Assembly (NCBI GenBank): GCA_945877625.1
Contig: CAMCSF010000004.1
Coordinates: forward strand, 1 to 40,970
DNA length: 40,970 nucleotides
DNA from: Methylomonas koyamae
GTDB lineage: Bacteria; Pseudomonadota; Gammaproteobacteria; Methylococcales; Methylomonadaceae
Direction of reading: 5' to 3'
Each line of letters opens with the position of its first letter. The stretch's first letter is position 1. The notes below the pieces were generated by a model. It saw only the letters and a program-made list of their open reading frames with translations, ran no database searches and was not told where the DNA came from. Positions 3,473 through 25,093 of this stretch are shown in pieces. The position numbers were made by a program, and so were the translations under genes.

Positions 3473-6286
3473 TTAATCTTTGCGGCTATTAAGCCAAGCC
3501 TCGACCGGTTTCCAATGGTTTTTCCAAGCAATCAATTCACGCGCCGGCAACGGCTCGGCAATCGCGAAACCTTGGCCAAATTCACAGCCCATATTTAAAA
3601 GCATTTCACCTTGCTCAATGGTTTCGATACCTTCGGCAATCACCTTACGACCAATATTATTGACCAAGCTAATCACGCTTTCGACAATCGCTAAATCTTC
3701 TGGATTACTATCCATATCATGAACAAAGCTACGATCAATTTTAATGGTGTTAATCGGCAATTGGCGCAGATAAGTCAATGATGAATAACCGGTACCAAAA
3801 TCGTCTAAGGCAAATTCAATGCCAATTTGTTTACAAGCCTCAATAATTTGATTGGCGTTTTGACGGTCATGTAAGGCAGTGGTTTCTAAAATTTCAAACT
3901 CTAAACTGCCAGACTGAAATTTAGGGTATTCGGCAATTTCCCGTTCTAGTCTTGAAAAGAAATCGTGTTGATTCAATTGGCGAGCATCGATATTAATGCT
4001 GACCGGAATATTTAAACCTTGCTCTCGCCAAGCGTCGATTTGCGCTAGTGCAGAACGCAAAACCCAGCAGCCAATTTCAACACCGATTGGATGATTTTCC
4101 ACCAAAGGTAAAAATGCTGATGGTGTTAATAAACCTTGGGTCGGGTGTTGCCAGCGAATGAGTGCTTCAACCCCTATCAACGCACCGTTGTGCATATTGA
4201 CCTTGGGTTGGTAATACAACACAAACTGGCCTTCTTCCAACCCAACCTGAATGTCTTTGAGGACTTCGGTTCTAGTATTACTCAAAGTATCGGTCTGGCC
4301 ATCAAAGCGATGAACCCCATTTTTGCCAGCTTGTTTGGCTACATACATGGCCTGATCAGCTTGCCTAATCAGGCCATCAATATCAACGTCATGCTTATCG
4401 AATTGGTAGCGATAAAAACTAATGCCGATACTGGCCGAGACTTTTAAGAGCAAATTATTAAGATGAATAGGCGTTTGGCAAGCTTGTAATAAATGATTGA
4501 CTGGCGTATCGGCCGCTTCTTCGCTGTCCAAATCGGCCAATAAAACAATAAACTCATCACCACCAATTCTGACTAAAGTATCGGTTTCACGTAGTGTCTG
4601 TTTCATCTGCTGACTGATGGCGATAAGAAACTCATCGCCAACATCATGGCCATAACTATCATTGATAGCTTTAAATCCGTCCAAATCAATAAACACAATC
4701 GCCAAACAGCCGCCATTACGTTTAATTCTTGCCATACTTTGTGCCAATCGATCTTTTAATAACAAACGATTAGGCAAACCAGTCAAACTATCGTAATAAG
4801 CCAGTTGCTCTATTTGCCGACGCTTTTCGATGACCGCAGAAATATCACTCGCAATCGCCAAGTAGCGAATTGGATTTTGCATTTCATCGCGCACCGCTGT
4901 GATAGTGCTAACCGCCGAATACAAGGCGCCATCTTTGCATCGATTAGTCACCTCACCACACCAAAAACCTTGCTCAATCACCGCTTTCCACATATCAGCG
5001 TAAAAACTACTATCGTGAAGCCCAGATTTAATCAGGCGAATATGCCGACCAATAACTTGTTCTCGCGTATAGCCCGTCACCCTTAAAAACCGGTCATTCA
5101 CTTCCAAAATGAAGCCATTAAGATCGGTGCTGTAGATAATCTCATGCGAGCTATTGAAAAAATCATTCGCCACTTTGGCGTATTTAGCTTCGGTTATATC
5201 GGTGCCATAACTGATATAACCTTTAAAGGCGCCATTGGCATTAAAGCGCGGCACACCATGACAATCAATCCAACGATATTCGCCACTGTTGGCACGCATA
5301 CGGTACTCAACTCGGAACGGTAGGTGTTGATCAAAATGGGTATGGAAAATATCTAAGCAACGATAATGGTCTTCTGGGTGCATATTGCCTTGCCAACCAT
5401 TACTAATTTCCTGAGTCATGCTATGGCCAGTAAATTTCAACCAAGCATTGTTAAACCAAAATAGTTTTTTATCGACACCGGCCAGCCAAATTAACGAGGG
5501 AGCGGAGTTAGCTAAATCGCGAAAACTTTGCTCCGATAAAATTAACTGCGATTCAAAATGTTTGCGGTCGGTAATATCGCGTTGCATGCCTAAATATTGG
5601 GTTAACTGACCTCGGCTATTAAATATCGGAGTGATAGTCAGCTCATTCCAAAATATCGAACCATCTTTGCGATAGTTTAATAATTCACCGCTAAAAGCTT
5701 GATGGTTTTTCAGCGCCACGCTAAGACGTTGAATCTCTGCTTGATCGGTATCTGAACCTTGTAATAATGAGCAAGATTTACCTAATAATTCGGCCAGCGA
5801 ATAGCCTGTTAGCTTTTCTGTTGCAGGATTGGCATAGGTAATTTTGCGGTTAACATCAGCCAATATAATGCCCTGCACCATTTTATTGAGGATATTCATA
5901 TTCTGGAACTGGGTTTCCTGTAATTGCTGCGGCAAAGACATCATTTCAGGAATAATTTTTAACATCAAAATAGCCGTGATAACCGATAAGCCCGCTGTAA
6001 TCAGTTTAAACAGCCCAGCTATCCAATAAATCGGATACCAAATAGTAATCAATGACATCAAATGAGTCATGCCACAGCTAATAATAAATGCAGCAAATAG
6101 GCCAATTAACCAACGATATTCAAATACTTTCCGCTTGGTAATAAAAAACAGCAGGATTAGCGGAATCGAGAAATAAGCTAAGGTGATTAATAAATCAGAA
6201 AAGACATGCAGTCTTAATAAGAGGGGACTCCAAGATAGGCAATAGCCGTGTGGAATAAAGTTTTGAATCGTAAACAAATTTTCCAT
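3473..6286 (-). CDS. Ethylene-receptor-like membrane sensor with PAS x3, GGDEF and EAL domains
   Basis: Predicted c-di-GMP synthase/phosphodiesterase of the inner membrane. Residues 20-112 form three hydrophobic helices matching the ethylene-binding domain of ETR1-type receptors: D31, Y38, P42, I68, C71 and H75 fall at the same mutual spacings as ETR1 D25, Y32, P36, I62, C65 and H69. In the receptors the Cys/His pair holds copper. Three PAS domains follow (about 130-240, 250-365 and 370-485), the first two each ending in a DIT motif. Then come GGDEF (575-579, intact, so cyclase activity is possible) and EAL (707-709, with a DDFGTGYSS loop, so hydrolysis is possible). The ATG is preceded by AAGG at about 5 nt. 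The gene stands alone, separated by about 190 bases from the chemotaxis cluster. The domain order is clear; the actual ligand is inference. Confidence 0.93.
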   Translation of the reverse strand: MENLFTIQNFIPHGYCLSWSPLLLRLHVFSDLLITLAYFSIPLILLFFITKRKVFEYRWLIGLFAAFIISCGMTHLMSLITIWYPIYWIAGLFKLITAGLSVITAILMLKIIPEMMSLPQQLQETQFQNMNILNKMVQGIILADVNRKITYANPATEKLTGYSLAELLGKSCSLLQGSDTDQAEIQRLSVALKNHQAFSGELLNYRKDGSIFWNELTITPIFNSRGQLTQYLGMQRDITDRKHFESQLILSEQSFRDLANSAPSLIWLAGVDKKLFWFNNAWLKFTGHSMTQEISNGWQGNMHPEDHYRCLDIFHTHFDQHLPFRVEYRMRANSGEYRWIDCHGVPRFNANGAFKGYISYGTDITEAKYAKVANDFFNSSHEIIYSTDLNGFILEVNDRFLRVTGYTREQVIGRHIRLIKSGLHDSSFYADMWKAVIEQGFWCGEVTNRCKDGALYSAVSTITAVRDEMQNPIRYLAIASDISAVIEKRRQIEQLAYYDSLTGLPNRLLLKDRLAQSMARIKRNGGCLAIVFIDLDGFKAINDSYGHDVGDEFLIAISQQMKQTLRETDTLVRIGGDEFIVLLADLDSEEAADTPVNHLLQACQTPIHLNNLLLKVSASIGISFYRYQFDKHDVDIDGLIRQADQAMYVAKQAGKNGVHRFDGQTDTLSNTRTEVLKDIQVGLEEGQFVLYYQPKVNMHNGALIGVEALIRWQHPTQGLLTPSAFLPLVENHPIGVEIGCWVLRSALAQIDAWREQGLNIPVSINIDARQLNQHDFFSRLEREIAEYPKFQSGSLEFEILETTALHDRQNANQIIEACKQIGIEFALDDFGTGYSSLTYLRQLPINTIKIDRSFVHDMDSNPEDLAIVESVISLVNNIGRKVIAEGIETIEQGEMLLNMGCEFGQGFAIAEPLPARELIAWKNHWKPVEAWLNSRKD

Positions 6287-6474: not shown

Positions 6475-9400
6475 CTAAGGCGATTTAAGTCCCAATAAAT
6501 GACTAATATCCAATAACAAGCCCACTTCACCACTGGCGAGTAAAGCACAGCCAGTCACGCCTCGAATCGATGCCAAATAGCCTTGTAACGGCCTAATCAA
6601 CACATGCTGTTGACCAATTAGCTCATCAACCACAATCGCTAAGCGCTGTTTATCACCCCGCACAATCACATATAAACCCAACTGGGTTGGATAGCGGAAA
6701 GATTGTTGATCATGCCGCCCTGCTAACAGTTGAATCGGAATCACATCCTCAGTCGATAAACGTAGCATCGGCTGACCACCGTCAGCAGACACCTGCATCA
6801 TGTGCTTAGCATCAGCGCGAATAATGGTTTGAATCCCCTGAATAGGAATTACATATTTGACCGCATCGACTCGCACCACCATACCTTCGACCGCCACCAT
6901 CGCCAACGGTAGCGAGAGTTGAAAACCTGGTGCATTGCTGATGTGCAAATTACCGCCTTGAATTTGTAATTGCTGGCGGATTTCGTTGAGTTGCTGTGCC
7001 ACACCCTGTTGATCGCTGATGTGATTAAGGCCAATGCCATCATCGCTTAAGCTCAGTTTGATGTGATCATCATAGCGAAGCAATTGCACTTTGATTACAG
7101 CGACCTCCGCTTTGCCAACCGCCAAGCGTTGTTCAGGCAATTCAATACTGTGATGAATCAAAATCTGTAACAAGCTACGCAGCGGCGCTTTTAGCTGATC
7201 GACCATACTAAAATCCAGCTCAATCTCATCGCCGCTAGTGATTAAACTCACTTGTCGATTCGATTGTCGCGCCAGACTTTCACAAAACGGCTGCAGCGGT
7301 TTGAGCAATAACGCCGCTGGCCGCACCCGCAAACTAATCGCTTCGTCTTGCAAGCGATTGAGCAAAGCGGTGTGATGGGTTTCCAGTTGAATCAGTTGTT
7401 CTAACTGCCCTTGCCAAGCTTCTAAAGCTTGTTTGACCGGCCCTTTCGCCAGCGGCCATTGCTGACCGGCATCATGGACAATGGCATCGACTGAATACGG
7501 CAAATCGGTTTCAATCAATTGATTCAGCATATGTTGAACCATCGATTGCCCGGTCACCAATTCACCAATAATTTCTAGGATTTCACTGGATAAAATACTT
7601 TGGGTGGTGATGGTTTGAGTGGCATCTTGCTGATGACCTGATTGGGCGTGTTGATGCTGGCTATGGCGATCATGCAATACCGCCTCCAGCCGTAGTTGTT
7701 GGCTTTGCGGATCTAATAAACTCAACGCCTCATAAATCGCTTCTTCACTCAAACGACTGGCGATGAAAAAATCATATAAAGTCTCAGCACCTTCAAACAC
7801 CGTGACATTACTAATCACTTCACCAGCACCGGTGCTAATCCAGTTAATAAACTCGCCAGCCAATTCTTCATCGTGATTCAAATCAGCGCGAATGATGTAG
7901 AAACACCGCCCTTGCTCTAACGCATTGACCACGGTTTTAATACTTTCTGGAGTCAACACTTTATGAAACGATTTTGGCAAACCCAATCGCGCTTCAATTT
8001 GCGCTGATGACAAGGTGCCATTGCTGGCAAACGTAACCTCCGAGGTATCTTGTAACAGCTGTTTCAACTGCGCCATATCGGGCGTCTCACCGAGCTCAGC
8101 TGAATCCAAAACAATCTCAACATCGCTGATGAATGATTTAGTGATGTGCAACAACATCGCATCAACCACCAATTCACCGGTTTCGGCGCGACTGTATAAA
8201 TCCAGCATCGACATGCTTAAATGCGCGGCGGTATCCATGCCGTAATGCAAACAGGCGTGATAAACCTGATGCAGTAACACAATCATCCGCTGGCATTGAA
8301 GCGGCGGATTTTCCTGACGATTGAGCCGCTCCATCACCAAGCGCATATCCAACAAATTGTCGAACAAATGCTCCGCGCACCATTGCCGCAAGCTGTGGCG
8401 GGGATTGATGGCTAATAGCTGAGCATCGTCGGCTAACAAATCGGCAATCGCCGCTAGTTCGCGATACAACTTGAATTCGAAATCGGGGTAATAGGTAGCA
8501 ATTAAGCCATCATCGCGACCGATTTCGACAATCAATTGATCTAGCACCTCAATCAAACGAACAAACCCATGCGGTTCGGCAAGACTGATTATCTGTGAAG
8601 CGGCTGTGACTATCGCGTCTAAATTGTGCGGCTCGCCTAAAGCTTGGCTTAACTGCGATAACTGATTGAAAGGCGCTTGTAATTGAGTGAAGAAGTCTTG
8701 AATCGAATCATCAGCGCTAGACGAATTGGTATGAGTAGCGGTTATCGCTTCGCTTGCTGTTGGGAAATCTTCGCCGTACAAAGCCTGTAAGGCCTCAAGC
8801 AAAATCTGAGCGGTTTCAATATCCGGTTCTATGAAGCCAAGGAAATTGCTCAATAGCGATGACCATGCCTGCATACCCATTTGCTGAGCGGCATAATGCA
8901 GTTGCTCGACTTCTTCACTCAAGGATTTTAAATCTTGTTGATTGGCCAGAATGGTTTGCATATTGCGCAAATTATCCTCGGCTATCTCACGGAAAATTTC
9001 CCGATAAACTGGATCATCGGCTAAAGCGCTGTTATCCAGTGGCTCAAAAATAATCGATTCTTGTAAAACCGCTTGAGGTTGGTCATCAACAGGCAAATCA
9101 GCGACTTTTTCAGTTTTAGCTAAACGACAAGCAGCGATTTTATCGGTCAATCGCTGACACATATCCGTCGCTAAATGTTGTGGTGCATCGTGATGATTAG
9201 CAACCGACAATTCCAACATGCCACGCAAACAATCGGTCGCTTCAAATAACAAATCGATAATCTGATTATCTAAAGCCACCCCATCATCACGCACCAGACC
9301 AATCATATCCTCGGATTGATGCGCAACCGATTCAATCACCGACAAGCCCAGCATTCTGGCATTGCCTTTGTAGGTATGCATGGCGCGAAATAATCGCGCT

Positions 9401-9525
9401 ATCGCATCGGAGTTGTTGGGCGTTTGTTGCAAAATCAATAGGCAAGCCTCTACCTCGTCAAGCGACTGGCCACCTTCTTCTGCATACAAGCCCCAAATTT
9501 CATTAATATCCAAATCATCGGACAT
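6475..9525 (-). CDS. CheA3-like phosphotransfer protein: Hpt and CheW-like ends, degenerate kinase
   Basis: Predicted phospho-acceptor half of a split chemotaxis kinase, 1016 aa. Residues 1-110 are an Hpt (P1) domain with phospho-accepting H50 in an HTYKGNAR context. A second, worn Hpt-like segment without a clear active site lies near 175-235. The middle is helical and unassigned. At about 640-870 a CheA dimerisation/ATPase relic survives: its N-box reads IHHSIEL where active CheAs have RNSxDHG, the DDGxGL box is kept, and the ATP lid with the GRGVGMD box is deleted. The last 140 residues are a good CheW-like P5 domain. The ATG has AGGGGTT upstream. It is the last gene of the operon, 43 bases after the response regulator. 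By homology with R. sphaeroides CheA3 it would be phosphorylated by the P1-less CheA at 15344-16570 and pass phosphate to response regulators; that partnership is inference. Confidence 0.88.
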   Translation of the reverse strand: MSDDLDINEIWGLYAEEGGQSLDEVEACLLILQQTPNNSDAIARLFRAMHTYKGNARMLGLSVIESVAHQSEDMIGLVRDDGVALDNQIIDLLFEATDCLRGMLELSVANHHDAPQHLATDMCQRLTDKIAACRLAKTEKVADLPVDDQPQAVLQESIIFEPLDNSALADDPVYREIFREIAEDNLRNMQTILANQQDLKSLSEEVEQLHYAAQQMGMQAWSSLLSNFLGFIEPDIETAQILLEALQALYGEDFPTASEAITATHTNSSSADDSIQDFFTQLQAPFNQLSQLSQALGEPHNLDAIVTAASQIISLAEPHGFVRLIEVLDQLIVEIGRDDGLIATYYPDFEFKLYRELAAIADLLADDAQLLAINPRHSLRQWCAEHLFDNLLDMRLVMERLNRQENPPLQCQRMIVLLHQVYHACLHYGMDTAAHLSMSMLDLYSRAETGELVVDAMLLHITKSFISDVEIVLDSAELGETPDMAQLKQLLQDTSEVTFASNGTLSSAQIEARLGLPKSFHKVLTPESIKTVVNALEQGRCFYIIRADLNHDEELAGEFINWISTGAGEVISNVTVFEGAETLYDFFIASRLSEEAIYEALSLLDPQSQQLRLEAVLHDRHSQHQHAQSGHQQDATQTITTQSILSSEILEIIGELVTGQSMVQHMLNQLIETDLPYSVDAIVHDAGQQWPLAKGPVKQALEAWQGQLEQLIQLETHHTALLNRLQDEAISLRVRPAALLLKPLQPFCESLARQSNRQVSLITSGDEIELDFSMVDQLKAPLRSLLQILIHHSIELPEQRLAVGKAEVAVIKVQLLRYDDHIKLSLSDDGIGLNHISDQQGVAQQLNEIRQQLQIQGGNLHISNAPGFQLSLPLAMVAVEGMVVRVDAVKYVIPIQGIQTIIRADAKHMMQVSADGGQPMLRLSTEDVIPIQLLAGRHDQQSFRYPTQLGLYVIVRGDKQRLAIVVDELIGQQHVLIRPLQGYLASIRGVTGCALLASGEVGLLLDISHLLGLKSP

Positions 9526-9568
9526 TGCTCAACCCCTGATTTATTAAATGTTTGCGCGTCAAGTTAAC

Positions 9569-9976
9569 TTAGCTAAGACCAACTAAACGACGCATAACCT
9601 CAGTCAATTCCATACCACGGGCATCGACCAAATCCAAAGAAACTGCACCGGATGGTTTAGTCACAATCGCATCAGCACCTAAAGCTCTGGCTTTAGCGGC
9701 ATAAGGTGAACCAGCCAAAGCAACAGAAGACAAAACGATGATTTTGGCTTTGCTTTTTAATTTGGCGTGACGTAAAAACTCCAAGCCATCCATTTCTGGC
9801 ATTTCAATGTCTAATAAAATCAATGACAAATCTTTATGGTTGTTCAATTCTTCCAAAGCTTTTTTGCCATTTTCAGCAAATGCTACTGCTCTAAAATCCG
9901 GCATTTTGGTGACGAATGTGCGAATCACTGAACGCATCATGACCGAGTCATCAACGATTAATACTTTATGTTCCAT
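9569..9976 (-). CDS. Single-domain response regulator, CheB-receiver-like (CheY6 position)
   Basis: Receiver-only response regulator, 135 aa from the chosen start. It has acidic pocket D10/D11 region, phospho-acceptor D56 in LLDIEMP, S83 and K107. After K107 it reads KPSGAVSLD, the type of sequence that leads into the linker of CheB proteins, but the methylesterase domain is absent. The ATG at 9976 is preferred over an upstream start at 10033, because GAGG sits 8 bases before it and the receiver fold begins right away. It lies between the soluble MCP gene and the Hpt protein, the place held by cheY6 in R. sphaeroides cheOp3. It is the likely phosphate receiver of this operon; whether it acts on the flagellar motor or elsewhere cannot be read from sequence. 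Confidence 0.9.
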   Translation of the reverse strand: MEHKVLIVDDSVMMRSVIRTFVTKMPDFRAVAFAENGKKALEELNNHKDLSLILLDIEMPEMDGLEFLRHAKLKSKAKIIVLSSVALAGSPYAAKARALGADAIVTKPSGAVSLDLVDARGMELTEVMRRLVGLS

Positions 9977-10087
9977 CTTTCTTTCCTCAAATTTGTTGTC
10001 AAATACTGATGTAAGGCAGTGCCGTGATAGCAAACCGCCTTAGCTTTAATTTCATCAAGAGCTTGATCGGTAAGCGGTGTAATCGGT

Positions 10088-12175
10088 TTAGAAATCGCCG
10101 AAACCACGCTCATCAGCATCCAGCGGTAAAACCGATTTCGGTGATTTTTTCGGCTTTGATTGCGCTGCTACGACTGGTTTGGCCGCAGGTTCGGCAATAC
10201 TGTGTTGAGCATCAAGCAAGGCTTTTAATTGACGCAAAATCTCCGGCGTTAAACCTTCCAATCCTGGGACTGACACTGAAGCTTGCGGTTCTTCACGCTT
10301 GCGCAATTGGAAGCGATTGACTTCCTGACGCATTTGACCGGTTACATTACTTAATTCATCGGATGATGAGGCCAATTCTTCGGCTTGTTGACTGCCCTCT
10401 TCTGCGGCTTTCGCCACTTGACTCATCGCCACACTAATTTGGGTTAAGCCGCGTGATTGCTCAACACTGGCGGCGGCAATTTCTGCTACCAAATCTTTGA
10501 CTTTAGTCACACCATTAACAATTTGTTCCAATGACTCACGGGTTTGACTAACAATCGTCACACCTTCGTTGACTCGTTTGGATGAATCTTCAATCAAATC
10601 GGCGGTTTCGCGCGCGGCTTTGGCACTGCGTCCTGCTAAATTACGCACTTCTTGCGCCACCACAGCAAACCCACGACCATGCTGACCGGCTCGGGCCGCT
10701 TCAACCGCCGCATTCAAGGCTAACAAATTGGTTTGGAAGGCGATTTCGTCGATAACTTTGATGATTTTGGCGATATTTTGTGAAGCATCATTAATCGAAT
10801 TCATCGATTGAATCATGCTTTCCATTTTTTGCTGACCTTGGTTGGCAGCTAAAGCAGCATCCATCACCAATTGGTTGGCAGCGCTGGCATTGTCGGTATT
10901 GGCTTTGACTTGGCTATCGGTTTCTGCGAGGCTGGCAGAGACTTCTTCAACCGATGATGATTGCTCTTCAGCAGTTGCCGCCATACTTTGTGAGGCTTGT
11001 TTTAATTCTTCAGAGGAATTACCGACTTGTTCAGCCACCGCATTAATTTGATAGAAAGTCTTATTCAGGCCAATAAAGGCTTTCTCAAAGGCTTCCATGA
11101 TGATGCGGAAGTCGCCTTGATATTTTTGTAAATCAGCGCGTTGCGTTAAATCACCATCAACAATAGCCTGTGACAATGAAATGGCATCGCCAATAATTTG
11201 TTTAAAATTATCCCGTAAAATTTCTATCGTATCGTTGATAAAGGCTTTTTTGCCGGGGAATTTTTCTAAAGGCGCATCAAAATTACCTTCACCAAATTCA
11301 GCAACGCAGGTTAACGCTTTCTTCTTAGCCGAAATATGCGCGGCAACCATATCGTTAATGCCATTCGCTAATTCAATATAAGCACCTTGAAATTTGCTGG
11401 CATCAATAAATACATCAATATCGCCTTTATCATGCTCATCAGACATGTGTTTTAAATCAAGCAACAAGGTCTGAATCGTAGTTCTCATTGTGTCAGCGCT
11501 GGATTGCAACATAGCCGCCGAACCCGAACATAACTCCGCACCGATCAAAGGCTTGGTTAAATCGCCATTAGCTACGCCGGACAATACATCGGCAATATTT
11601 TCCATCACCGATACATCACTCCATTCAACCAAAGTACCGCTACGTTTGCCATCAGCATCAAATAAAGGCGCAGCGACTAATTCAAATACCCGATTACCTA
11701 ATCTGATTTTAGCGCTATGTTTACCTTGAATACTGGCAACCATTTGTCGTTGGTGCGAGGGATTTCTATGGAATAAATCCATACTCTGGCCAATTAATTT
11801 TGTTCTATCAAAATGCGGCAAATATTTTTTAATATCTTCCTCTGCTTGAGCGAACATATTATTTAAAGACGCATTCATATAGGTAATAATATTATTTTCA
11901 TCCGCTAACTGAATACAGCTACTGAGATTATCTAATAATGAAGTTTGTGCAGCATTCTGAGTAACGGACATAATGTTCTCCTGTTCAATTTCTATCAATG
12001 ATTGCTGGGGCACTGTGACTTTGGATGAGTCGGGTCGTGCGCTGGCTTTTGTTTTTTTAATCGGTTTTTCGATGGTTTGAGGCGGCGTATCCGGTGGCTC
12101 TATCGGTTTGACCCAATCTAAAGGATCATTCATGACACGGCCTCGACTGGGTTTGCTCGGTTTTTTCACCGTCAT
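10088..12175 (-). CDS. Soluble (cytoplasmic) methyl-accepting chemotaxis protein with PAS domain
   Basis: Chemoreceptor with no transmembrane segment, 695 aa. Residues 1-60 are a Lys/Arg/Pro-rich, probably disordered extension. A PAS domain follows at about 75-190 with FHRNPSHQ in it, then HAMP-like helices, and the MCP signalling hairpin at about 390-620 with the CheA/CheW-contact tip ([20 protein letters not shown]). The tail ends in GFGDF, which resembles but does not match the CheR/CheB tethering pentapeptide. The start overlaps the ParA stop by 4 bases (ATGA), with AAGGAG upstream; an internal ATG at residue 15 is an alternative. It is in the slot of tlpT in R. sphaeroides cheOp3. Such receptors form cytoplasmic arrays; the N-terminal extension may be the ParA contact (inference). 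Confidence 0.93.
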
Positions 12176-12894
12176 TGGCCTTGCTCCTTAGCATTTTGCT
12201 CAAGTGTCAAAATCGCCTTGACTAATGCTGAGTAATCTTCGGCACCGGCACTATTGGGCGCATAGTCAAAAATGCTTTGACCATAACCCGGCGATTCGGC
12301 TAATCGGACATTGTTGCGAATCACTTCAGCTAATAAATGTTGCCCAAAACGCTCGGTCAGCCGCGCTCGCACTTCACGATGTACGATCAATCGGTCGTCA
12401 TATCGGCATAACAACAGTCTTAGTCGTGACCAAGGAATCTGTTCCATTTCCATGCGTTGCATTAAGCGACTGATGCCTTGCATACTTAAAAACTCTGGCT
12501 CCATCGGCGTTAACACCCAATCACACAACTGCATTAAAGCGGCGACTTCCGGTGTCCACATTGGTGGCGCATCAAACACCACATAATCGGTTGTTGGCAT
12601 CACTGGCGTGTTTAAAGGGCGCTGCAGCGGTGGATTGCAATCACCGGCAATCAATTGCAAGCGCTCTGAAATCACTTCGGTTTGAAATGGGCGATTACCG
12701 GCCAGCCAATGGCTAACATTCCAAGGCAAAGTTTCGGCTCGCAAACCCATCGCGGCAGTCAAATGGGTTTGGGGATCAAGATCAACCAAAGTGACGGTTT
12801 TATTGCTAACACCGGCTAAACCAACCCCTAAATTTAGCGCGGTGGTGGTTTTACCGACACCACCTTTTTGATTAAAAATCAGAATTTTCATCAC
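12172..12894 (-). CDS. ParA/MinD-type ATPase for positioning the cytoplasmic chemoreceptor cluster (PpfA/Slp-like)
   Basis: Deviant Walker A ATPase, 240 aa: KGGVGKTT near the N-terminus, LVDLDPQ (Walker A' region) and VVFDAPP (Walker B region). ParA proteins bind DNA non-specifically as ATP dimers and move cargo over the nucleoid. No ParB gene or parS is apparent; the neighbour is a soluble MCP whose gene overlaps this one by 4 bases. This is the arrangement of ppfA/slp and tlpT in R. sphaeroides, where PpfA spaces cytoplasmic receptor clusters before division. The track start is GTG at 12894; an ATG follows immediately at 12891 and may be the true start. The Shine-Dalgarno sequence is weak, so translation may be coupled to cheW, which ends 5 bases upstream. 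Confidence 0.9.
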
Positions 12895-12899
12895 TAAAC

Positions 12900-13442
12900 T
12901 TATTCAGCGATTGGCGCCGATTCCAAAACACTGTGTAATTCGATGGCTTGATTAGACACCAAGCGTTGAATATCGAGAATAATCGCCACTTTGTTTTTTT
13001 GTTTACCAAAACCACGAATCACATTGTTTTCGTTAAAACGGCTCGGCAAATCAATTTGGCTTTCGGGAATTTCAATCACTTCTCTGACATAATCAACCAC
13101 TAAGCCAATCATGACATTATCAATATCCAAGACAATAATCACCGTGCGTGGCGTGTAGGGTTTTGCTACCAAGCCAAACCGCAAACGAATATCCATAATA
13201 GGAATCACTTTACCGCGCAGATTAATCACGCCTTTAATAAAATTCGGCACATCCGGCACTTCCATAATCCGCTGCATACCCACCACTTCGGTCACATAAC
13301 TAATCCCGATTCCGTATTCTTCACCAGAAACCCCGAAGGTTAAATACATATCCTCAATATTGTCTTCGTCATTGAAAACCAAGGTGGTGCTTTCGTATTC
13401 TGAGTCATATTGGGGTGCATCACTGGCTGTCGTATCTGACAT
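12900..13442 (-). CDS. cheW: Chemotaxis coupling protein CheW
   Basis: CheW adaptor, 180 aa from the chosen start, linking receptor tips to the P5 domains of CheA. A 40-residue acidic N-terminal tail precedes the SH3-like double barrel, which carries the hallmark FIKGVINLRGKVIPIMD-type stretch near residues 80-95. The ATG at 13442 is favoured over an upstream in-frame start at 13499: GAGG sits 6 bases ahead, and the longer form would overlap cheB. It lies between cheB and the ParA gene in the cytoplasmic-array operon, so it presumably serves the soluble MCP and the two CheA halves. Confidence 0.94.
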   Translation of the reverse strand: MSDTTASDAPQYDSEYESTTLVFNDEDNIEDMYLTFGVSGEEYGIGISYVTEVVGMQRIMEVPDVPNFIKGVINLRGKVIPIMDIRLRFGLVAKPYTPRTVIIVLDIDNVMIGLVVDYVREVIEIPESQIDLPSRFNENNVIRGFGKQKNKVAIILDIQRLVSNQAIELHSVLESAPIAE

Positions 13443-13452
13443 ATCAACCTCT

Positions 13453-14532
13453 TTAACTATTGCGATTATTGTTAAGCGAAGGACGGCGGATGAAGGCACT
13501 CATTAACATCGCCGGAATTTGTTCTAGCGGCACGATGTTTTGAGCACCGCCCAAACTGTAAGCCACTTGCGGCATACCAAAGACGACTGAACTGGCTTCG
13601 TCTTGGACCACTGTGCTGCCGCCAGCACGAAAAATAGCTAACATACCTTCCGCACCATCTTTGCCCATGCCAGTCAAAATGGCAGCGGCAGTATTAACGC
13701 CAGCAGCTTTAGCCACCGAATGAAACAAAACATCCACTGCTGGTCGGCTGTAATTCACCGGATCACCCTCAATCAAGGCAATCCGATACTGTCCACCGGA
13801 ACGCTCAACTACCATGTGTTGGTTACCGCCCGGTGCTAAAAATACATGTCCCGGCAAAATGCGATCACCGTGCTCGGCTTCTTTAACGTGCATGGCGCAT
13901 AAACTGTTAAGGCGTGCGGCAAAACTGGCGGTGAAGCCACCCGGCATATGCTGAACAATGACGATACCCGGGGCATTGGCGGGAAAAGCCGGCATGATTC
14001 TGGCCAAAGCTTCGACACCACCAGTCGAGGCACCGATGGCAATCACTTTGTCGGTGGTTTCCCCCAAACTGGCAACCGGTTCTATTTCGCGGCGAACGGC
14101 ATTGCGTTTGAAATGACTGACGTTAACTTGCGCGGCCGCTTTAACTCGGCGATTAATGTCGGCCAGTAATTTTGGCAATTCATCGACCAAGCCCAATTGT
14201 GGCTTAGAAATAATATCGACTGCGCCGGATTCTAAGGCTTCGAGGGTAATGCGCTCACCTTCCTGAGTCAGCGAACTAATCATGACGGTTGGAATCGGCA
14301 TCACCGGCATAAAGCGTTTGAGAAAGGTAATTCCATCCATGCGCGGCATTTCGACATCAAGAGTAATCACATCTGGCTCAAGCTCGACCATTAAATCTCT
14401 GGCGATATATGGATTTGCCGCTTCGCCAATCACTTCAATTTCAGGGTCACTACGCATCCCGTCCGACAAAATGCGTCTGACTAAAGCCGAGTCATCGACA
14501 ATCAACACGCGCACTGTTTTTTTGCTGACCAT
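13453..14532 (-). CDS. cheB: Chemotaxis protein-glutamate methylesterase CheB (cytoplasmic-array copy)
   Basis: Phosphorylation-activated methylesterase/deamidase of MCPs. An N-terminal receiver (about 1-125) has D59 as phospho-acceptor. A C-terminal esterase domain carries the catalytic serine in GASTGG, the histidine in QHMPGGFT and the aspartate in GMGKDGAEG. At 359 aa it is full length. The ATG at 14532 overlaps the cheR stop by one base (TGATG); a TTG one codon earlier is possible. Gene order cheR-cheB-cheW follows the P1-less cheA, so the predicted substrate is the soluble MCP encoded downstream. Confidence 0.95.
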   Translation of the reverse strand: MVSKKTVRVLIVDDSALVRRILSDGMRSDPEIEVIGEAANPYIARDLMVELEPDVITLDVEMPRMDGITFLKRFMPVMPIPTVMISSLTQEGERITLEALESGAVDIISKPQLGLVDELPKLLADINRRVKAAAQVNVSHFKRNAVRREIEPVASLGETTDKVIAIGASTGGVEALARIMPAFPANAPGIVIVQHMPGGFTASFAARLNSLCAMHVKEAEHGDRILPGHVFLAPGGNQHMVVERSGGQYRIALIEGDPVNYSRPAVDVLFHSVAKAAGVNTAAAILTGMGKDGAEGMLAIFRAGGSTVVQDEASSVVFGMPQVAYSLGGAQNIVPLEQIPAMLMSAFIRRPSLNNNRNS

Positions 14533-15347
14533 CAAAAAGGCTTCCTGTAAATACCGTTATCAATCATTTGCCAACGCGATTCCAAGCCACGCAAAGACAC
14601 CGTGACACTGGTCAACAACCAACCGCCCGGCTCAGTGACATCATAAATGGCTTCAATGATTTGTTTTTGCTGTGGTTTATCGAAGTAATACAAAACGTTA
14701 CGACAAAACACGACGTGAAAATTGCGTTGAAACGGATAGGGATGGTTTTTTAGATTGAGGCGGCGAAAGGTACAGAGCTGGCGAATTTCGGCTTTAACTT
14801 GGTAGTGCTCATCACCTACATGATCAAAATAATTGGGCAGAATCTGTGCCGGCATTTTATCGATATGCATGGCGCCATAAACCGCTTTTTCGGCTTCAGC
14901 AATCACCACACCGCTAATATCAGTACCTAAAATCGCTAAGCGGTTTTTGGCCCATTTCATACCGCGTTTTTCAGCGGCAATAATCGCCAAGGTATAAGCC
15001 TCGTCACCTGAAGAAGCCGCAGCGCTCCAAATCCTAGCCCCTTCAGCAGGCAGATTGGGCAAGATATGGTCTTGAAAATAATTCAACACCTGCGGTTCAC
15101 GGAAAAAATAAGTGTGGTTGGTCGAAGCAGCGTGAATCACGGCATACAGCAAGTCGCTATCATTGCCCATCACCAAACGTTCAGCCAAGGTATGCAGGTC
15201 AGGGATTTTGTGTCGGTCACAAACGCTTAGCATTCGATTAATCAGCAGCTCACGTTTTTTTTCAGGAAACACCATGCCGCAACGATCTTGCAACCAATTG
15301 CCAATCCGTTGATATTCGGCTTCGTAAACAAAAGGCGCTTGGTTCAT
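14532..15347 (-). CDS. cheR: Chemotaxis protein methyltransferase CheR (cytoplasmic-array copy)
   Basis: SAM-dependent glutamate methyltransferase of chemoreceptors, 271 aa. An N-terminal helical domain (about 1-75) is followed by the Rossmann domain with WSAAASSGDEAYTLA, where the family's usual GEEPY is GDEAY. It also has the conserved FCRNVLYYFD stretch near residues 215-225. The start overlaps the upstream cheA stop by 4 bases (ATGA), with GAAGGG ahead. It is diverged from the second CheR in this window (28042-28911), consistent with each serving a different receptor. Confidence 0.94.
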   Translation of the reverse strand: MNQAPFVYEAEYQRIGNWLQDRCGMVFPEKKRELLINRMLSVCDRHKIPDLHTLAERLVMGNDSDLLYAVIHAASTNHTYFFREPQVLNYFQDHILPNLPAEGARIWSAAASSGDEAYTLAIIAAEKRGMKWAKNRLAILGTDISGVVIAEAEKAVYGAMHIDKMPAQILPNYFDHVGDEHYQVKAEIRQLCTFRRLNLKNHPYPFQRNFHVVFCRNVLYYFDKPQQKQIIEAIYDVTEPGGWLLTSVTVSLRGLESRWQMIDNGIYRKPF

Positions 15348-16570
15348 AGCCCTTCACCGGATTTCAATTCTTCACAATTCAAAACAATAGCCACCTCACC
15401 AGAACCGAGTAAGGCACAACCATGACTGGCGCGGATTTGTTCTAATTGACCTTGTAAGGGTTTCATAACCACTTGTTGTTGATCGTAAATTTCATCAACC
15501 GGCAGACCGATTGAACCAGTTGAAGTTTTAAATACGACAATCACTAACGATTCCAAAGGCGCTAATTGTTGGCAATCTTCGCCGTAAAAACGCTGTAGTC
15601 GACAAATTGGGATTAACTCATCTCGCACGCGAATCATTTCACCGCCGTTGTTGGCAGCGATAGTGCTGATTTGTTTTTGCTCTGGGCGGAACACTTCATT
15701 GACGACATCAATCGGTGTCGCATAGAGCCGACTGCCAATCCGCATCACTAAACTATCTAAAAATGCCAGTGATAACGGTATCGATAATTTGACGTGTGTA
15801 CCTTGGCCGGTTTGACTATCAACACTAATATGACCGCGCAAACTTTTCATGGTGGCGTTCAAAACATCCATGCCTACACCGCGTCCCGATAAATTAGTCA
15901 CGGTTTCGGCGGTTGAAAAACCCGGTTGAAAGATCACTTGCCATAAACGTTGATCGTCGGGTTCTTCGGTCAAGCCAATCAAACCGCGTTCACGAGCGCG
16001 ACTGAGAATTTTGTCACGATGCAGACCTTTGCCATCATCGGCAACGGTAATTTGAATATCACCGCCTAACTGGAGCGCGCTAAGCGTGATGCGACCGGTG
16101 TCTGGTTTGCCCAATGCAAGCCGTTCGGCTGGGGTTTCTAGGCCATGATCAGCGGAATTGCGCAGCACATGAACCAGCGGCTCGTATAATCGGTCGGCAA
16201 CCACTTTATCGATTTCGGTATCTTCGCCTTCCAAAACTAAATCAATTTTTTTATCCGTTTGTCGCTCTAGCTCTCTGACCATCCGCCGCATGCGCCGAAA
16301 CACTTCGCCAATCGGCACTTGCCGTAATTCAGACGCGGCATCTTGCATTTCGCTTAATAGCATTTGTAGCCGATGCGCTGAATTAGAAAATTCAGGTAGT
16401 TCCAAGCCTTTTAAATCAGGACTATGAATCACTTCGGCAACCCCTAAACTCAATTCACCCACCAAGTCCATCAGACGATCGACTTTATCAATTTGAATTC
16501 TCAAAAAGGCGGCTTGAGCATCGGCATTTAACACCTCTGCTGTATTTGAGTTAACGTTTGTAGAACTCAT
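15344..16570 (-). CDS. cheA: CheA4-like histidine kinase lacking the P1/Hpt domain
   Basis: Chemotaxis kinase core of only 408 aa, against about 650-700 for complete CheAs. It starts almost directly with the P3 dimerisation helices (about 20-90). The P4 ATPase follows with an intact N-box (LRNSADHGLE), DDGKGL, FSTAETVTNLSGRGVGMDV, and then a CheW-like P5 domain (about 270-408). No histidine phosphotransfer domain and no P2 exist, so it cannot accept its own phosphate. It heads the operon, overlapping cheR by 4 bases, while the matching Hpt protein is the last gene (6475-9525). R. sphaeroides CheA4/CheA3 work in this divided way. The Shine-Dalgarno before the ATG is weak. The catalytic assignment is well supported; the partner is inference from operon and precedent. 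Confidence 0.93.
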   Translation of the reverse strand: MSSTNVNSNTAEVLNADAQAAFLRIQIDKVDRLMDLVGELSLGVAEVIHSPDLKGLELPEFSNSAHRLQMLLSEMQDAASELRQVPIGEVFRRMRRMVRELERQTDKKIDLVLEGEDTEIDKVVADRLYEPLVHVLRNSADHGLETPAERLALGKPDTGRITLSALQLGGDIQITVADDGKGLHRDKILSRARERGLIGLTEEPDDQRLWQVIFQPGFSTAETVTNLSGRGVGMDVLNATMKSLRGHISVDSQTGQGTHVKLSIPLSLAFLDSLVMRIGSRLYATPIDVVNEVFRPEQKQISTIAANNGGEMIRVRDELIPICRLQRFYGEDCQQLAPLESLVIVVFKTSTGSIGLPVDEIYDQQQVVMKPLQGQLEQIRASHGCALLGSGEVAIVLNCEELKSGEGL

Positions 16571-16814
16571 TCGGTTGTCTTAGCAAAATAAAGCAAACTC
16601 CTTGTCCAAAAATCGTAGCTGAGGAAGACACAGCTAAGCCCTAGCTTGCACTTTAGCACTTGGAAAACAGATTTGATTGGTCGAAGACAGCGGATAAATC
16701 CCTTCTTTTCTATACCCTATTTCTGAGAGATTATTGACGCTTCCGCTTGACAAGCCAAACAACAACACTGGCTAACGAGCGTACCATGGTGTTTTGGCTC
16801 TTTAAAACAGAGGG

Positions 16815-17171
16815 TTAGGATTTAAACCAACGACCGATTAAGCCAGTTTGCTCAATCGCCAGACATTGCAATCGTTTGGCGGCGGCATGTGCGAAGTCTG
16901 ATTCGGGGTGTTTTTCAATGATTTGTTTAAGCAGCGCTTGACTGTCATTACCCAGCAATGCAATTGCCGCTAGACGAACCGAGGGATAATGGGCGTTCAG
17001 CGCCGCTAATTCAGTTAAATAGTCAGTGGCATGGTGCAATTGCTTGAGCATGACTTTTTCTGGGTCTTCGGTGAACAATTCTAAAACCAATTGGCCATCA
17101 TTTTCTTCAGCCCGAATCAGTGCTCTGCGATCGATTCTTTTAGGTTCAGTTTGATCATCACAGCAGCCCAT
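16815..17171 (-). CDS. Small helical-repeat (HEAT-like) protein of unknown function
   Basis: A 118-aa protein I do not recognise as a named family. It begins MGCCDD, then has alternating amphipathic helices; stretches such as VRLAAIALLGN resemble a HEAT repeat, a protein-protein interaction scaffold. AGGA lies 5 bases before the ATG. It follows the full-length cheA by 97 bases on the same strand and is probably the last gene of the flagellar chemotaxis operon, suggesting an accessory role in signalling or motility. There is no signal peptide or membrane segment. The Cys pair at positions 3-4 could bind metal or take part in redox chemistry, but that is guesswork. Confidence 0.75.
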   Translation of the reverse strand: MGCCDDQTEPKRIDRRALIRAEENDGQLVLELFTEDPEKVMLKQLHHATDYLTELAALNAHYPSVRLAAIALLGNDSQALLKQIIEKHPESDFAHAAAKRLQCLAIEQTGLIGRWFKS

Positions 17172-17268: not shown

Positions 17269-19296
17269 TCAAGCACTACGATAAAACTCGGCACTGGTCC
17301 GCGTGTAATTACTGCGCAGTAAATCGGTGACATCAATAATTAACGACACACTACCATCACCCATAATGGTTGCACCAGATATATTAGGTACTTTGCGGTA
17401 ATTAGATTCGATATTTTTGACGACAATTTGTTGTTGTCCAACTAATTCATCAACTAATAGCGCGGCTTTACGATCCTCGGATGCAATAATCACCAAAATG
17501 CCTGACAAAGGATCGGTATGATTGGTTTCGGTATTAAACACACGATGCAGCGGTACGATTGGCAAATATTCACCGCGCACGAAAATCACTGTACCCTGCC
17601 CGCTAATTTCTTTGATATTAGCAGCCGACGGTTGAAAAGACTCAACCACATAATTCAACGGCAAAATATACGTTTCATCACCGACTTTTACCGACATACC
17701 ATCCAAAATCGCCAGCGTTAATGGTAGTGAAACGGTTGTAATAGTACCGACACCGGCCGCCGATTGAACATTCACTGTCCCACCTAAGCTGATAATGTTG
17801 CGTTTTACCACATCCATACCAACCCCACGCCCAGATAAATCCGTAACGGCATCCGCTGTCGAAAAGCCTGGTGCAAAAATTAATTGCCAAACTTCTTCAT
17901 CGGTAATCCCATCGCGGATGGCAATACCCTCTGCACGGGCTTTATTTAAAATTTTGTCACGATTGAGGCCAGCACCATCATCAGTCACTTCAATCAAAAC
18001 ATGACCACCTTGATGAATAGCTGACAAACCTAAGCGACCCACCGCGGGTTTACCTTTTTCCAACCGCGCATCAGAACTTTCAATACCGTGATCAATACTG
18101 TTACGCACCAAATGCGTCAGTGGATCAACGATTTTTTCAATCAAGCCTTTATCCAGTTCAATACTATTACCTTGGGTAACCAGATTAATTTGTTTGCCCA
18201 ATTTGGTTGATAACTCGCGCACCATGCGGGGAAAGCGTGAAAATACGACTTCCATCGGCATCATTCGCATCGACATGGCGGTTTCTTGCAAATCACGGCT
18301 GTTTTGCCCTAGCTGGGTGATACCGTTAAGTAGTTTTTCATGCAAGGCAATGTCCAAACCTTCTGAGCGTTTGGCAATCATGGCGTGAGTAATGACCAAC
18401 TCGCCGACCAGATTGATGAGTTGGTCGACTTTTTCAACACTGACTCGAATCGTTGATGACTCAGCATTGACATGCGCTAACTCAGGCTTGGTCGATGGTT
18501 TTTTAACTACTGGTGCAGGTGGCGGTGGCGGCGCGACTTCAACCGGCTTTTCAATGGTTTCGACTTTGGGCTCGTCAAAAAAACCAAAACCTAAGTCTTC
18601 ATCAGTCGGTAACTCAACTTGCGATTGGGTATTTTGTTCAATAATTTTGACTTGATCAAGATCTAAAACAAATGAACATAAGGCAAGAATTTCATCCTCA
18701 CCTTCATTGGTCGCGAGCTCTAAGACAGTTTTTTGGGCGTCAGCTGACTGACCAATCAAATCACCTAATAAAGATAATTCTTCTATTAAAGCTTCGGTAT
18801 CTTTTGAAGATGTATTCGATAATTCGATATGAAATTGTCTGGTGAAGGCGCTACTAACATTAGATTCTGTAGCAACATCTAAAACCTGTGGTGCGGGAGC
18901 CAGTGCGTTTTTGTCAATCATGGATTCCAAAACCATTTTGACATCAGCCGCCATTTCAGTATCGACTGGCGTATTAAGTCTTAAACCATCTAACTGCATT
19001 TTAAGTACATCGCGCGATTGCAACAAAATTTCCTGATGTTGCAATGTAAACTGCGCTTCGCCATGACGGATTTTATCCAGCATTGACTCTAAAACGTGGG
19101 TAATTTCGATAAGATCGACAAAACCAAAAGTAGCTGCGCCGCCTTTAATAGAATGAGCAATTCGAAATATTGCGTTTATATCTTCTAAATCAGGATTATC
19201 AACATCAACTGTTAGCAGTAGTTTTTCCAAGTCAGCTAAAAGCTCTTCGGTCTCATCAAAAAATATCTCGGAAAACTGACTAATATCGATGGCCAT
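17269..19296 (-). CDS. cheA: Chemotaxis histidine kinase CheA (complete)
   Basis: Full-length CheA, 675 aa. P1/Hpt has phospho-accepting H48 in AHSIKGGAATFGF. A P2-like response-regulator docking domain lies at about 150-230. A proline-rich linker (APPPPPAP, about 250) is followed by P3 helices (about 285-345). P4 has LVRNSIDHGIE, DDGAGL and SGRGVGMDVV, and P5 is CheW-like (about 535-675). All kinase boxes are intact. It is the autophosphorylating kinase of the membrane receptor array, passing phosphate to the two CheYs and CheB encoded just upstream. Good Shine-Dalgarno (GGGAG) about 8 bases before the ATG. The contrast with the two split CheAs in the neighbouring operon is clear. Confidence 0.97.
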   Translation of the reverse strand: MAIDISQFSEIFFDETEELLADLEKLLLTVDVDNPDLEDINAIFRIAHSIKGGAATFGFVDLIEITHVLESMLDKIRHGEAQFTLQHQEILLQSRDVLKMQLDGLRLNTPVDTEMAADVKMVLESMIDKNALAPAPQVLDVATESNVSSAFTRQFHIELSNTSSKDTEALIEELSLLGDLIGQSADAQKTVLELATNEGEDEILALCSFVLDLDQVKIIEQNTQSQVELPTDEDLGFGFFDEPKVETIEKPVEVAPPPPPAPVVKKPSTKPELAHVNAESSTIRVSVEKVDQLINLVGELVITHAMIAKRSEGLDIALHEKLLNGITQLGQNSRDLQETAMSMRMMPMEVVFSRFPRMVRELSTKLGKQINLVTQGNSIELDKGLIEKIVDPLTHLVRNSIDHGIESSDARLEKGKPAVGRLGLSAIHQGGHVLIEVTDDGAGLNRDKILNKARAEGIAIRDGITDEEVWQLIFAPGFSTADAVTDLSGRGVGMDVVKRNIISLGGTVNVQSAAGVGTITTVSLPLTLAILDGMSVKVGDETYILPLNYVVESFQPSAANIKEISGQGTVIFVRGEYLPIVPLHRVFNTETNHTDPLSGILVIIASEDRKAALLVDELVGQQQIVVKNIESNYRKVPNISGATIMGDGSVSLIIDVTDLLRSNYTRTSAEFYRSA

Positions 19297-19319
19297 ATAA
19301 GGGCTCCCTAACGCTATTT

Positions 19320-19679
19320 TTAAATGACTTTATTAACGACTGCAATCAAACGATCTGGATCAAAAGGCTTAACCAACCATCCAGTCGCTCCTGCAGATCT
19401 GCCTTTCGCTTTCATATCATCACCCGATTCAGTAGTTAACATCAAAATAGGGGTTTTTTGATATTCAGGTAAAGCACGTAAATTTTCTATTAACGTTAAA
19501 CCATCCATACGAGGCATATTTTGATCAGTAAGAACCAAATCAAATGCCTGATTCTGAGCTAGTTCTAATGCATCAACCCCATCAACTGCTTCGGTAACCT
19601 GATAACCCGCAGCTTTAAGGCTAAACGTCACCATTTGTCTTAACGACCGCGAATCATCAACAGCAAGTATGGTTTTCAT
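19320..19679 (-). CDS. CheY-like response regulator
   Basis: Single receiver domain, 119 aa: acidic pair D8/D9, phospho-acceptor D52 in LTDQNMPRMDG, and the conserved lysine in LVKPFD. AAGGAG lies 7 bases before the ATG. It is encoded immediately upstream of cheA, 23 bases away. It differs from the E. coli-type CheY at 20198-20596 and is closer to the CheYs that accompany cheA in many proteobacterial operons. It may be a phosphate sink or a second output; the motor-binding role is better assigned to the other CheY. Confidence 0.93.
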   Translation of the reverse strand: MKTILAVDDSRSLRQMVTFSLKAAGYQVTEAVDGVDALELAQNQAFDLVLTDQNMPRMDGLTLIENLRALPEYQKTPILMLTTESGDDMKAKGRSAGATGWLVKPFDPDRLIAVVNKVI

Positions 19680-19712
19680 TAAATGCGCTCCTTGTTGTAG
19701 GTATGTCTATAA

Positions 19713-20192: not shown

Positions 20193-20197
20193 ATTAA

Positions 20198-20596
20198 TTA
20201 GCCGGTTTTATTAAGTTTTTCAAGAATCTTAGTAATTTTTTCATCCAGCGTAGCTGCGGTAAACGGTTTAACAATATAACCGCTGGCTCCAGCCTGGGCT
20301 GCAGCGATGATATTCTCTTTTTTTGCTTCTGCCGTCACCATTAATACCGGCAAATGGCTTAAACTGGCATCAGCTCGAATGGATTGCAATAACTGCAAAC
20401 CATCCATTACAGGCATATTCCAATCAGAAACGACAAAATCAAAAGACTCTCGCTTAAGTTTCGACAATCCAACACTACCGTCTTCTGCCTCATCTACATT
20501 GGTATAACCCAGTTCTTTCAACAGATTACGGATAATCCTCCGCATGGTTGAAAAGTCATCTACAACTAAAAATTTCATATTGTTTGAATCTGACAC
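20198..20596 (-). CDS. cheY: Chemotaxis response regulator CheY (motor-switch type)
   Basis: Very similar in pattern to enterobacterial Che[15 protein letters not shown] at the N-terminus, phospho-acceptor D58 in [12 protein letters not shown]88 in [10 protein letters not shown], aromatic Y107 and K110 in [11 protein letters not shown]. 132 aa from a GTG start at 20596, which has GGAG 6 bases upstream; an internal ATG at residue 7 would cut into the first strand. Phosphorylated CheY binds FliM and changes flagellar rotation. It is followed by the CheZ-like gene with a 5-base gap. Confidence 0.96.
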
Positions 20597-20644
20597 AATT
20601 ACTCCAAAAATTTATCCTTAAAATAGGTGGCTCATCGCTAGCAT

Positions 20645-24213: not shown

Positions 24214-24215
24214 AA

Positions 24216-25082: not shown

Positions 25083-25093
25083 AAAACATTCCC

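Follow-up and report, generated by a model that had tools for sequence, protein, structure and literature searches.

The DNA analysed here, a stretch of 40,970 nucleotides from Methylomonas koyamae (contig CAMCSF010000004.1; hereafter the window), carries on its minus strand, between positions 6475 and 16570, eight adjacent genes for chemosensory proteins. Read along that strand, the open reading frames (ORFs) and their Pfam profiles give a CheA4-like kinase of 408 residues with domains P3, P4 and P5 and neither P1 nor P2 (15344–16570; H-kinase_dim, HATPase_c and CheW, no Hpt), a CheR3-like methyltransferase of 271 residues (14532–15347; PF01739, 4e-45), a CheB2-like methylesterase of 360 residues (13453–14535), a CheW4-like protein (12900–13442, with the likely ATG at 13442 in an ORF that opens at 13499), a ParA/PpfA-like ATPase of 240 residues with a KGGVGKT Walker A box (12172–12894; Pfam and NCBIfam), a soluble TlpT-like chemoreceptor of 695 residues (10088–12175) of the methyl-accepting chemotaxis protein (MCP) family, a CheY6-like single receiver (9569–9976, likely ATG at 9976, ORF from 10033) and a CheA3-like protein of 1016 residues (6475–9525). 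All eight frames are open in the window, with catalytic and binding residues in place. An initial annotation of this DNA had given the same minus-strand order and identified it with that of cheOp3 in Rhodobacter (Cereibacter) sphaeroides; the profile searches find the domains expected for each gene, and the order is identical in the R. sphaeroides locus used below. We consider it highly probable that the operon is a gammaproteobacterial orthologue of cheOp3, most likely with the same mode of action.

The overlapping start and stop codons cited earlier in favour of one transcript occur at three of the seven junctions (four bases each, at cheA4/cheR, at cheR/cheB with the first listed start, and at parA/MCP); with the likely starts, the genes at the other four junctions stand about 5 to 111 bases apart. 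Scans of the upstream intergenic region (16571–16814) against shuffled sequences gave no convincing promoter: a single sigma-70-like site matched at 9 of 12 positions (16758–16730), the sigma-70 total lay below that of the shuffles, and sigma-54 sites showed no excess over them.

Orthology with cheOp3 and the divided kinase

As the R. sphaeroides reference we used locus L123 (loci and genomes carry our L and G numbers), whose CheY6 equals Protein Data Bank (PDB) entry 3kyj over all 133 aligned residues, whose CheA3 P1 domain equals 3kyi almost throughout, and whose receptor, at 567 residues, has the published length of TlpT (PMC3964821). Identities between the window and this reference are 62% for CheA4, 48% for CheR, 55% for CheB, 53% for CheW, 49% for ParA, 50% for the receptor, 58% for CheY6 and 41% for CheA3. 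The five genes that were compared with standard che paralogues of the window are all closer to cheOp3, the paralogue values being 39% for CheA4, 30% for CheR (against 28042–28911), 48% for CheB (against 20645–21718), 37% for CheW and 32% for CheY6. With 28 other CheAs as the outgroup, the CheA4 tree unites all 29 cheOp3-type sequences in one group apart from the others, with a support of 100 in the Shimodaira–Hasegawa approximate likelihood-ratio test (SH-aLRT) and a long outgroup row present; all trees reported here are quick ones with SH-aLRT support only. Gene order is conserved as well. Among the 28 loci with cheA4 (those from the CheA3-pattern scan described below, plus L009), 24 have A4-R-B-W-(ParA)-MCP-Y6-A3 on one strand; the exceptions are L036, where cheB comes last, L038 and L040, which have no MCP in between, and L051, with no separate CheR match and with CheA3 in two ORFs. 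Two further loci depart from this layout: in L119 the receiver and CheA3 precede CheA4-CheR-CheB, and L023, on the Rhodobacteraceae QY30 chromosome, reads CheW-ParA-MCP-CheY6-CheA3 with no matched CheA4, CheR or CheB within 6 kb upstream.

The kinase function is divided between the first and last genes. The window CheA4 has intact ATP-site boxes (H..N, DDGKGL, a 35-residue lid, GRGVGM), and all 38 CheA4 sequences retain the N-box H..N, DDGxGL, the 35-residue lid and GRGVGM. The initial annotation was right about a split CheA with a P1-less kinase. Its description of the partner as an Hpt protein holds for the HPt domain; the gene encodes a pseudo-CheA of 1016 residues, with non-catalytic P3/P4 and a P5, and not a bare Hpt. 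In this protein the HPt domain (residues 7–135, with His50) has R. sphaeroides CheA3-P1 as its best PDB match (3kyi, 1.6e-32), and the C-terminal third matches CheA P3–P5 chains, with P3 at about 647–733, a pseudo-P4 at 735–875 and P5 at 876–1011. An AlphaFold2 model built from 31 sequences has a mean predicted local distance difference test score (pLDDT) of 80 and an overall predicted template-modelling score (pTM) of 0.35; because the latter is low, the model is usable for domain folds and not for their arrangement. Its residues 7–135 align to 3kyj (Z 22.4), 735–874 to CheA P4 (Z 20.7) and 876–1011 to P5 (Z 17.5). Within the helical region at about 165–500, a separate model of residues 160–640 (pLDDT 84) contains a pseudo-HPt fold at about 374–502 that matches CheA P1 (Z 16.7), and residues 165–361 are helical bundles with no specific fold match in the comparison list. 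A P2-like fold at about 536–620 is the weaker assignment because unrelated folds of the ferredoxin-like kind reach the same scores as CheA P2 by itself (Z 7.5–8.8); the P2 reading depends on 2lp4 being matched jointly, at a root-mean-square deviation of 12.7. The column of His419 is neither invariant nor nearly so in the CheA3 alignment, so we claim no second phosphosite. As modelled, CheA3 looks like an HPt domain followed by helical bundles and a degenerate CheA; for the R. sphaeroides protein, two further Hpt domains and P2, dimerisation and kinase domains have been described (PMC10782961).

The loss of kinase features in CheA3 is graded across the sequences compared. The GxGxG box is kept in none of 49 sequences and the N-box Asn is gone from 48, L048 being ambiguous with an N in a shortened segment. 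Between the N-box and GK lie 22 residues in 18 sequences (the window, Methylococcales, L009, L034, L041, L044 and L049), 17 in L022, 21 in L039 and 10–11 in the other 29, which come from Rhodobacterales or from alphaproteobacterial metagenome-assembled genomes (MAGs) of the Rhodobacterales clade. The pseudo-kinase lid of most gamma-side copies measures 22–29 residues; it has 35 in L039, 11 in the window, L014 and L015, 2 in L034 and 6 in L022, and is absent from all 29 Rhodobacterales-type copies. Gamma-side CheA3 therefore retains pseudo-kinase parts that all 29 Rhodobacterales-type copies examined lack, possibly a new observation. CheA3 has been proposed to be a once-complete CheA, in a CheA3/CheA4 arrangement called unique and of early origin in the Rhodobacteraceae (PMC10782961, 2023). 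The graded series fits the scenario of that paper, duplication of a working CheA followed by decay of one copy; CheA3 and CheA4 are sisters in our tree (support 80, CheA3 stem length 4.4), which is compatible with duplication inside the operon and is no proof of it. Separately, CheA3 is broken or split into two ORFs at L018 (5024–8261; 478 and 661 residues) and L035 (9977–13665; 1113 and 116 residues).

The surfaces that pair CheA3 with its receiver are conserved. By phmmer, the best PDB match of the window receiver is R. sphaeroides CheY6 (3kyj, 1e-43; next family 2e-18), and its Met finger stands in the VDDSVMMR column. In R. sphaeroides this Met finger decides recognition by CheA3, and interface residues decide phosphotransfer specificity (PMC2817712). 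Of 52 receivers, 51 have Met at this position and L039 has Ile. On the other side of the interface, the CheA3 P1 contacts (E-I/V-W-x-L/M and KGN-x-R-x-L/M-G-L) are conserved in most alignment rows; the exceptions are the broken frames of L018 and L051, and L039, which differs.

The soluble receptor, ParA and the DPLxW motif

The receptor has no transmembrane-like stretch: its highest 19-residue Kyte–Doolittle mean is 1.05, compared with 3.35 for the MCP at 28928–31318. It begins with a basic N-terminus containing NDPLDWV (residues 16–22), followed by a PAS-like region, HAMP-type domains and the MCP signalling domain; the PAS-like region and the missing transmembrane segments point to a putative input from inside the cell, either a ligand or a redox signal. 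The protein ends in GFGDF, and an aromatic pentapeptide of this kind, in a pattern that also allowed His, was found in 47 of the 48 receptors counted; the same sort of pattern serves to detect CheR tethers (PMC7390727). A receptor of another build, encoded at 13538–17707 of L117 in a parA-less operon of a single-contig genome, has 1389 residues and a transmembrane-like part, with a 19-residue mean of 2.39 at residue 194.

The N-terminus of R. sphaeroides TlpT engages PpfA (PMC3964821, PMC5706961) and shares its richness in positive charge with other activators of ParA (PMC7993993). Of the 40 loci that we scored, 22 lack parA, and presence of the gene is associated with DPLxW in the N-terminal part of the receptor. 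In the first sample, on which the motif was defined, DPLxW was present in 12 of 12 operons with parA and in none of 17 without, mostly after basic residues; in these loci it occurred in 11 of the 945 ORFs with 200 residues or more, all of them receptors. Pooled with a second sample, the motif marks 15 of 18 parA operons, or 16 of 18 under a relaxed form admitting NPLDW that was chosen after seeing L130, and none of the 22 parA-less ones (Fisher values of 2e-8 and 2e-9, which ignore relatedness). These counts omit 11 loci without a usable CheW in the first sample, loci without a usable operon receptor and duplicate contigs, and L108 was scored by eye on a cut frame of 125 residues. Nine parA-less Rhodobacterales (L026, L027, L028, L030, L031, L032, L037, L051 and L124) keep DPL and have lost the Trp. 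When the window ParA was used to search 16 parA-less genomes (six of the 22 parA-less rows lie outside this search), eight had no match at 1e-15 and eight had matches of 30–39% (best E 8.5e-30), none near the level of parA operons; three alphaproteobacterial genomes with parA gave 48–49% (E 3e-64 to 6e-66). From these sequence patterns, we read DPLxW as a likely docking element linked to parA. Near parA, an ORF of about 230 residues with repeated coiled-coil-like units is inserted after the gene in L017 (6217–6897, between parA and the receptor) and in L111 (11076–11771).

Distribution and history

To place the operon among bacteria, genomes were scanned with two CheA3 peptide patterns, which limit what could be found. 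The scan returned 41 loci in Methylococcales, Rhodobacterales, Hyphomicrobiales and unclassified proteobacteria; Methylococcales carriers include Candidatus Methylobacter oryzae KRF1 and a Methylovulum MAG, and two carriers of family f1 are contigs labelled Methylococcales and Methylococcaceae. A Gemmatimonadetes locus from the same scan (L054) had no A3-type best match. Counting the own or centre genome each time, in the methane-oxidising order Methylococcales, to which the window belongs, 14 of 311 genomes have cheA4 (7 of 50 genera, including the single-contig genome G813), as do 10 of 394 genomes of the family of Cereibacter azotoformans genome G649 and 2 of 398 phylum genomes. A class sample of 142 other genomes held none at the level of a CheA4 orthologue, the next CheAs reaching 41% identity. 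Searches with CheA3 found only the own genome among 101 relatives, 2 of 398 phylum genomes and 2 of 149 genomes in the family of G287. The system is thus found in Rhodobacterales and Hyphomicrobiales, in line with its earlier description as alphaproteobacterial, and is not confined to that class. The gammaproteobacterial context of the window was upheld: a search of 15 further genomes of the genus with the NusA encoded on its contig gave matches of 85–97% identity in 14 (two of them partial) and none in the fifteenth, and this NusA is 69–76% identical to that of nine Methylococcales carriers, 56% to that of L039 and 45% to that of L044 and L049. The genome is 81% complete with 5.9% contamination; contamination as the source of this contig was ruled out, its NusA being 97% identical to that of the closest same-genus genome. 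Carriage on a plasmid was likewise rejected: when plasmid sequences were searched by tblastn with CheA3, no more than four records came up, in which a CheA-type match covered 28% of the query. The 2023 survey assigns the CheA3/CheA4 system to the Rhodobacteraceae (PMC10782961), and no gammaproteobacterial cheOp3 and no DPLxW motif appeared among the papers listed by our searches of the open-licence PMC literature; as far as those searches reach, cheOp3-type members outside the Rhodobacteraceae are new.

The trees separate two main groups. In an earlier rooted CheA4 tree with 31 outgroup rows, some of them apparently badly read (L067, L003 and L076, left out later), the long L036 row is deepest, followed by Methylococcales, Hyphomicrobiales and L044/L049 on one side and Rhodobacterales on the other; with two clades above L036, Rhodobacterales are not nested in the gammaproteobacterial sequences. 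Methylococcales rows do not form one clade in CheA4-only trees (two changes are needed in the 28-outgroup tree), and do so in five- and six-gene trees (98–100), next to Hyphomicrobiales and L044/L049 and opposite Rhodobacterales. The window CheA4 is 68% identical to that of L044 (NusA 45%) compared with 67% to that of L020 from its own family (NusA 70%). Its closest relatives are L014 and L015 (CheA4 87%, CheY6 96%, NusA 73%); NusA is closer to Methylobacter oryzae (76%), and CheA4 is 78% identical to that of L108, probably although not certainly the same species. Set against NusA, the CheA4 identities hint at transfer.

In R. sphaeroides the fla1 locus includes cheOp3, and its Fla1 flagellum has been proposed to come from a gammaproteobacterium (PMC7277832). 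fliE–fliI stand about 2 kb from cheOp3 in L123 and L131, and fliE–fliJ directly follow the operon in Methylococcaceae L017; none of the other gammaproteobacterial loci read has fli genes beside the operon in this way. The flagellum and the operon may have a common origin. Taking these lines together, we see an evenly balanced case for a broader history in which the split CheA3/CheA4 would be an old cross-class module and not a Rhodobacteraceae invention; CheA3 would be a duplicated, stepwise eroded CheA, with an intermediate stage preserved in Methylococcales and Hyphomicrobiales; the basic-plus-DPLxW receptor N-terminus would be a docking or activating peptide for a PpfA-type ParA, kept with parA and eroded (DPLDLI, DPLAEL) where parA was lost; and in R. 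sphaeroides the module may have a history in common with the gamma-derived Fla1 flagellum whose locus it occupies.

Around the operon, the window has the normal motility region that the initial annotation had placed beside it (17269–26555, minus strand). That region, which is no part of the operon, has a complete P1–P5 CheA (17269–19296), CheY (20198–20596), CheB, CheW, CheZ (a regular one, 22402–23139), MotB, MotA, FlhC and FlhD. An ORF of 118 residues without a significant Pfam match (16815–17171) lies between the operon and the standard cheA, and an ORF of 159 residues without a Pfam match lies within the standard che operon (19713–20192). Right after cheA3 follows a PAS-GGDEF-EAL protein with an N-terminal ethylene-receptor-like domain (3473–6286; PF25487, 1e-33); in L014 and L015 a relative of it (51–54%, cut by the contig end) is found upstream of the cluster. 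Elsewhere in the window's genome, an open frame of 943 residues contains one more CheA-type kinase match, the third (G000:C3, 37925–39097; L003).

Mode of action and comparison with known systems

By analogy with R. sphaeroides, the soluble receptor, CheW, CheA4 and CheA3 would assemble into a cytoplasmic array. CheA4, with an ATP site and no HPt, would phosphorylate His50 in the HPt domain of CheA3, whose own kinase domain is dead; the phosphoryl group would pass through the conserved P1/Met-finger interface to the CheY6-like receiver, which would act on the flagellar motor, and the CheA3 body would probably aid its removal from the receiver. CheR and CheB would tune the receptor, whose C-terminal xFxxF peptide probably serves as a tether for CheR. 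ParA, the ATPase, would bind both the nucleoid and the basic DPLDW-bearing N-terminus of the receptor, so that arrays are spaced and inherited.

Several observations weigh against an orthologue that acts in the same way. R. sphaeroides CheB2 has Met at its Met-finger position (PMC2817712); in the operon CheBs the position is Leu in all 13 gammaproteobacterial sequences, and elsewhere Met in 19, Leu in 4 and not parsed in 8, so transfer from CheA3 to CheB may differ in the gammaproteobacterial operons. The PAS match of the receptor is below the Pfam cut-off, and the receptor input may therefore differ from that of TlpT. In the second sample, DPLxW marks three of six operons with parA (four under the relaxed form, with NPLDW in L130) and none of five without; parA without DPLxW occurs in L125 and L127. 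A tree-aware test with six independent pairs gave three to four in the same direction under the strict motif, four to five under the relaxed one and none in the opposite direction, with median p values of 0.125 and 0.0625, which are not significant. Finally, the window genome is the only one of its genus in which the operon was seen, none of at least 29 others listed having it, so it could be a recent acquisition.

We also considered a cheOp3 orthologue with an output other than the motor, such as surface behaviour or a cyclic-di-GMP enzyme, with the standard CheA, CheY and CheZ alone running the flagella. The complete che, mot and flhDC set next door would suit such a division of labour, as would the PAS-GGDEF-EAL gene directly downstream and its relative upstream of the L014 and L015 clusters. 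However, the orthologous receiver stops the motor in R. sphaeroides (PMC6829392, PMC10924463), the operon adjoins motility genes in the window, and fli genes follow the cluster in L017 and lie close to it in L123 and L131; we regard a non-motor output as unlikely. Less probable still is a recently acquired, possibly inactive passenger. Its absence from the other genomes of the genus listed, its kinship to L014/L015, closer than NusA predicts, and a G+C content of 0.459, compared with 0.399–0.429 around it, are what a passenger would lead one to expect, whereas eight open frames with their catalytic and binding residues in place, in the same order as in L014 and L015, argue against it.

ParA homologues are common in che operons (PMC2829493), and the one here could instead place the array at the pole in the manner of Vibrio ParC, with a CheW-like ParP as its partner, rather than work on the nucleoid as PpfA does. 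This is improbable, given that ParA adjoins a soluble receptor, is close to the R. sphaeroides gene and is present in step with the receptor N-terminal motif, and that the operon CheW has a single CheW domain by Pfam. Although cheR–cheB and cheA–cheW blocks are common in che operons (PMC2829493), independent assembly of unrelated che genes in a similar order is barely credible and was ruled out by the trees and pairwise identities, which group the CheA4s and place five genes closer to cheOp3 than to their standard counterparts, and by the shared degenerate, 1000-residue architecture of CheA3.

We therefore return to the cheOp3 orthologue. cheOp3 is a model for cytoplasmic arrays, split kinases and ParA-mediated partitioning of protein cargo, and that model is drawn mainly from one species. 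The members known so far belong to R. sphaeroides and its family, and the Methylococcales operon adds a member of unusual evolutionary value: together with the Hyphomicrobiales copies it takes CheA3/CheA4 beyond the Rhodobacteraceae and provides a further lineage for comparison, and its less-eroded CheA3 is a kinase of the sort predicted by the 2023 survey (PMC10782961), hinting at the origin of this odd protein. The parA-linked DPLxW motif reduces the question of how TlpT engages PpfA to a short mutagenesis experiment. For the hosts, the operon suggests that some methane oxidisers may tune their swimming to an internal signal.

Among known systems, E. coli-type CheA, as at 17269–19296, shares domain ancestry with CheA4 and CheA3 and differs in having all domains in one protein, with 39% identity to CheA4 in the shared core. 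Vibrio ParC/ParP, likened here by description and not by sequence, also has a ParA-like ATPase acting with chemosensory arrays, but anchors them at the pole via ParP (PMC5706961). Other operons in Methylococcales, Hyphomicrobiales and unclassified proteobacteria (L014, L015, L017, L020, L021, L009, L044, L049 and others) share the gene order and CheA3 type of the window; unlike it, several cheOp3-type operons lack parA and the motif, and full-length receptors range from 646 to 1389 residues. R. sphaeroides cheOp3 itself differs from the window operon, whose host is gammaproteobacterial, in receptor length (695 residues in the window, 567 in L123), in the CheA3 N-box segment (22 residues compared with 11) and in the Met-finger position of CheB (Leu compared with Met in CheB2; PMC2817712). 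The two are alike in their eight orthologues in the order CheA4-CheR3-CheB2-CheW4-PpfA-TlpT-CheY6-CheA3, in the HPt/CheY6 interface, in the dead kinase domain of CheA3, and in a ParA that adjoins a soluble receptor with a basic, DPLDW-containing N-terminus.

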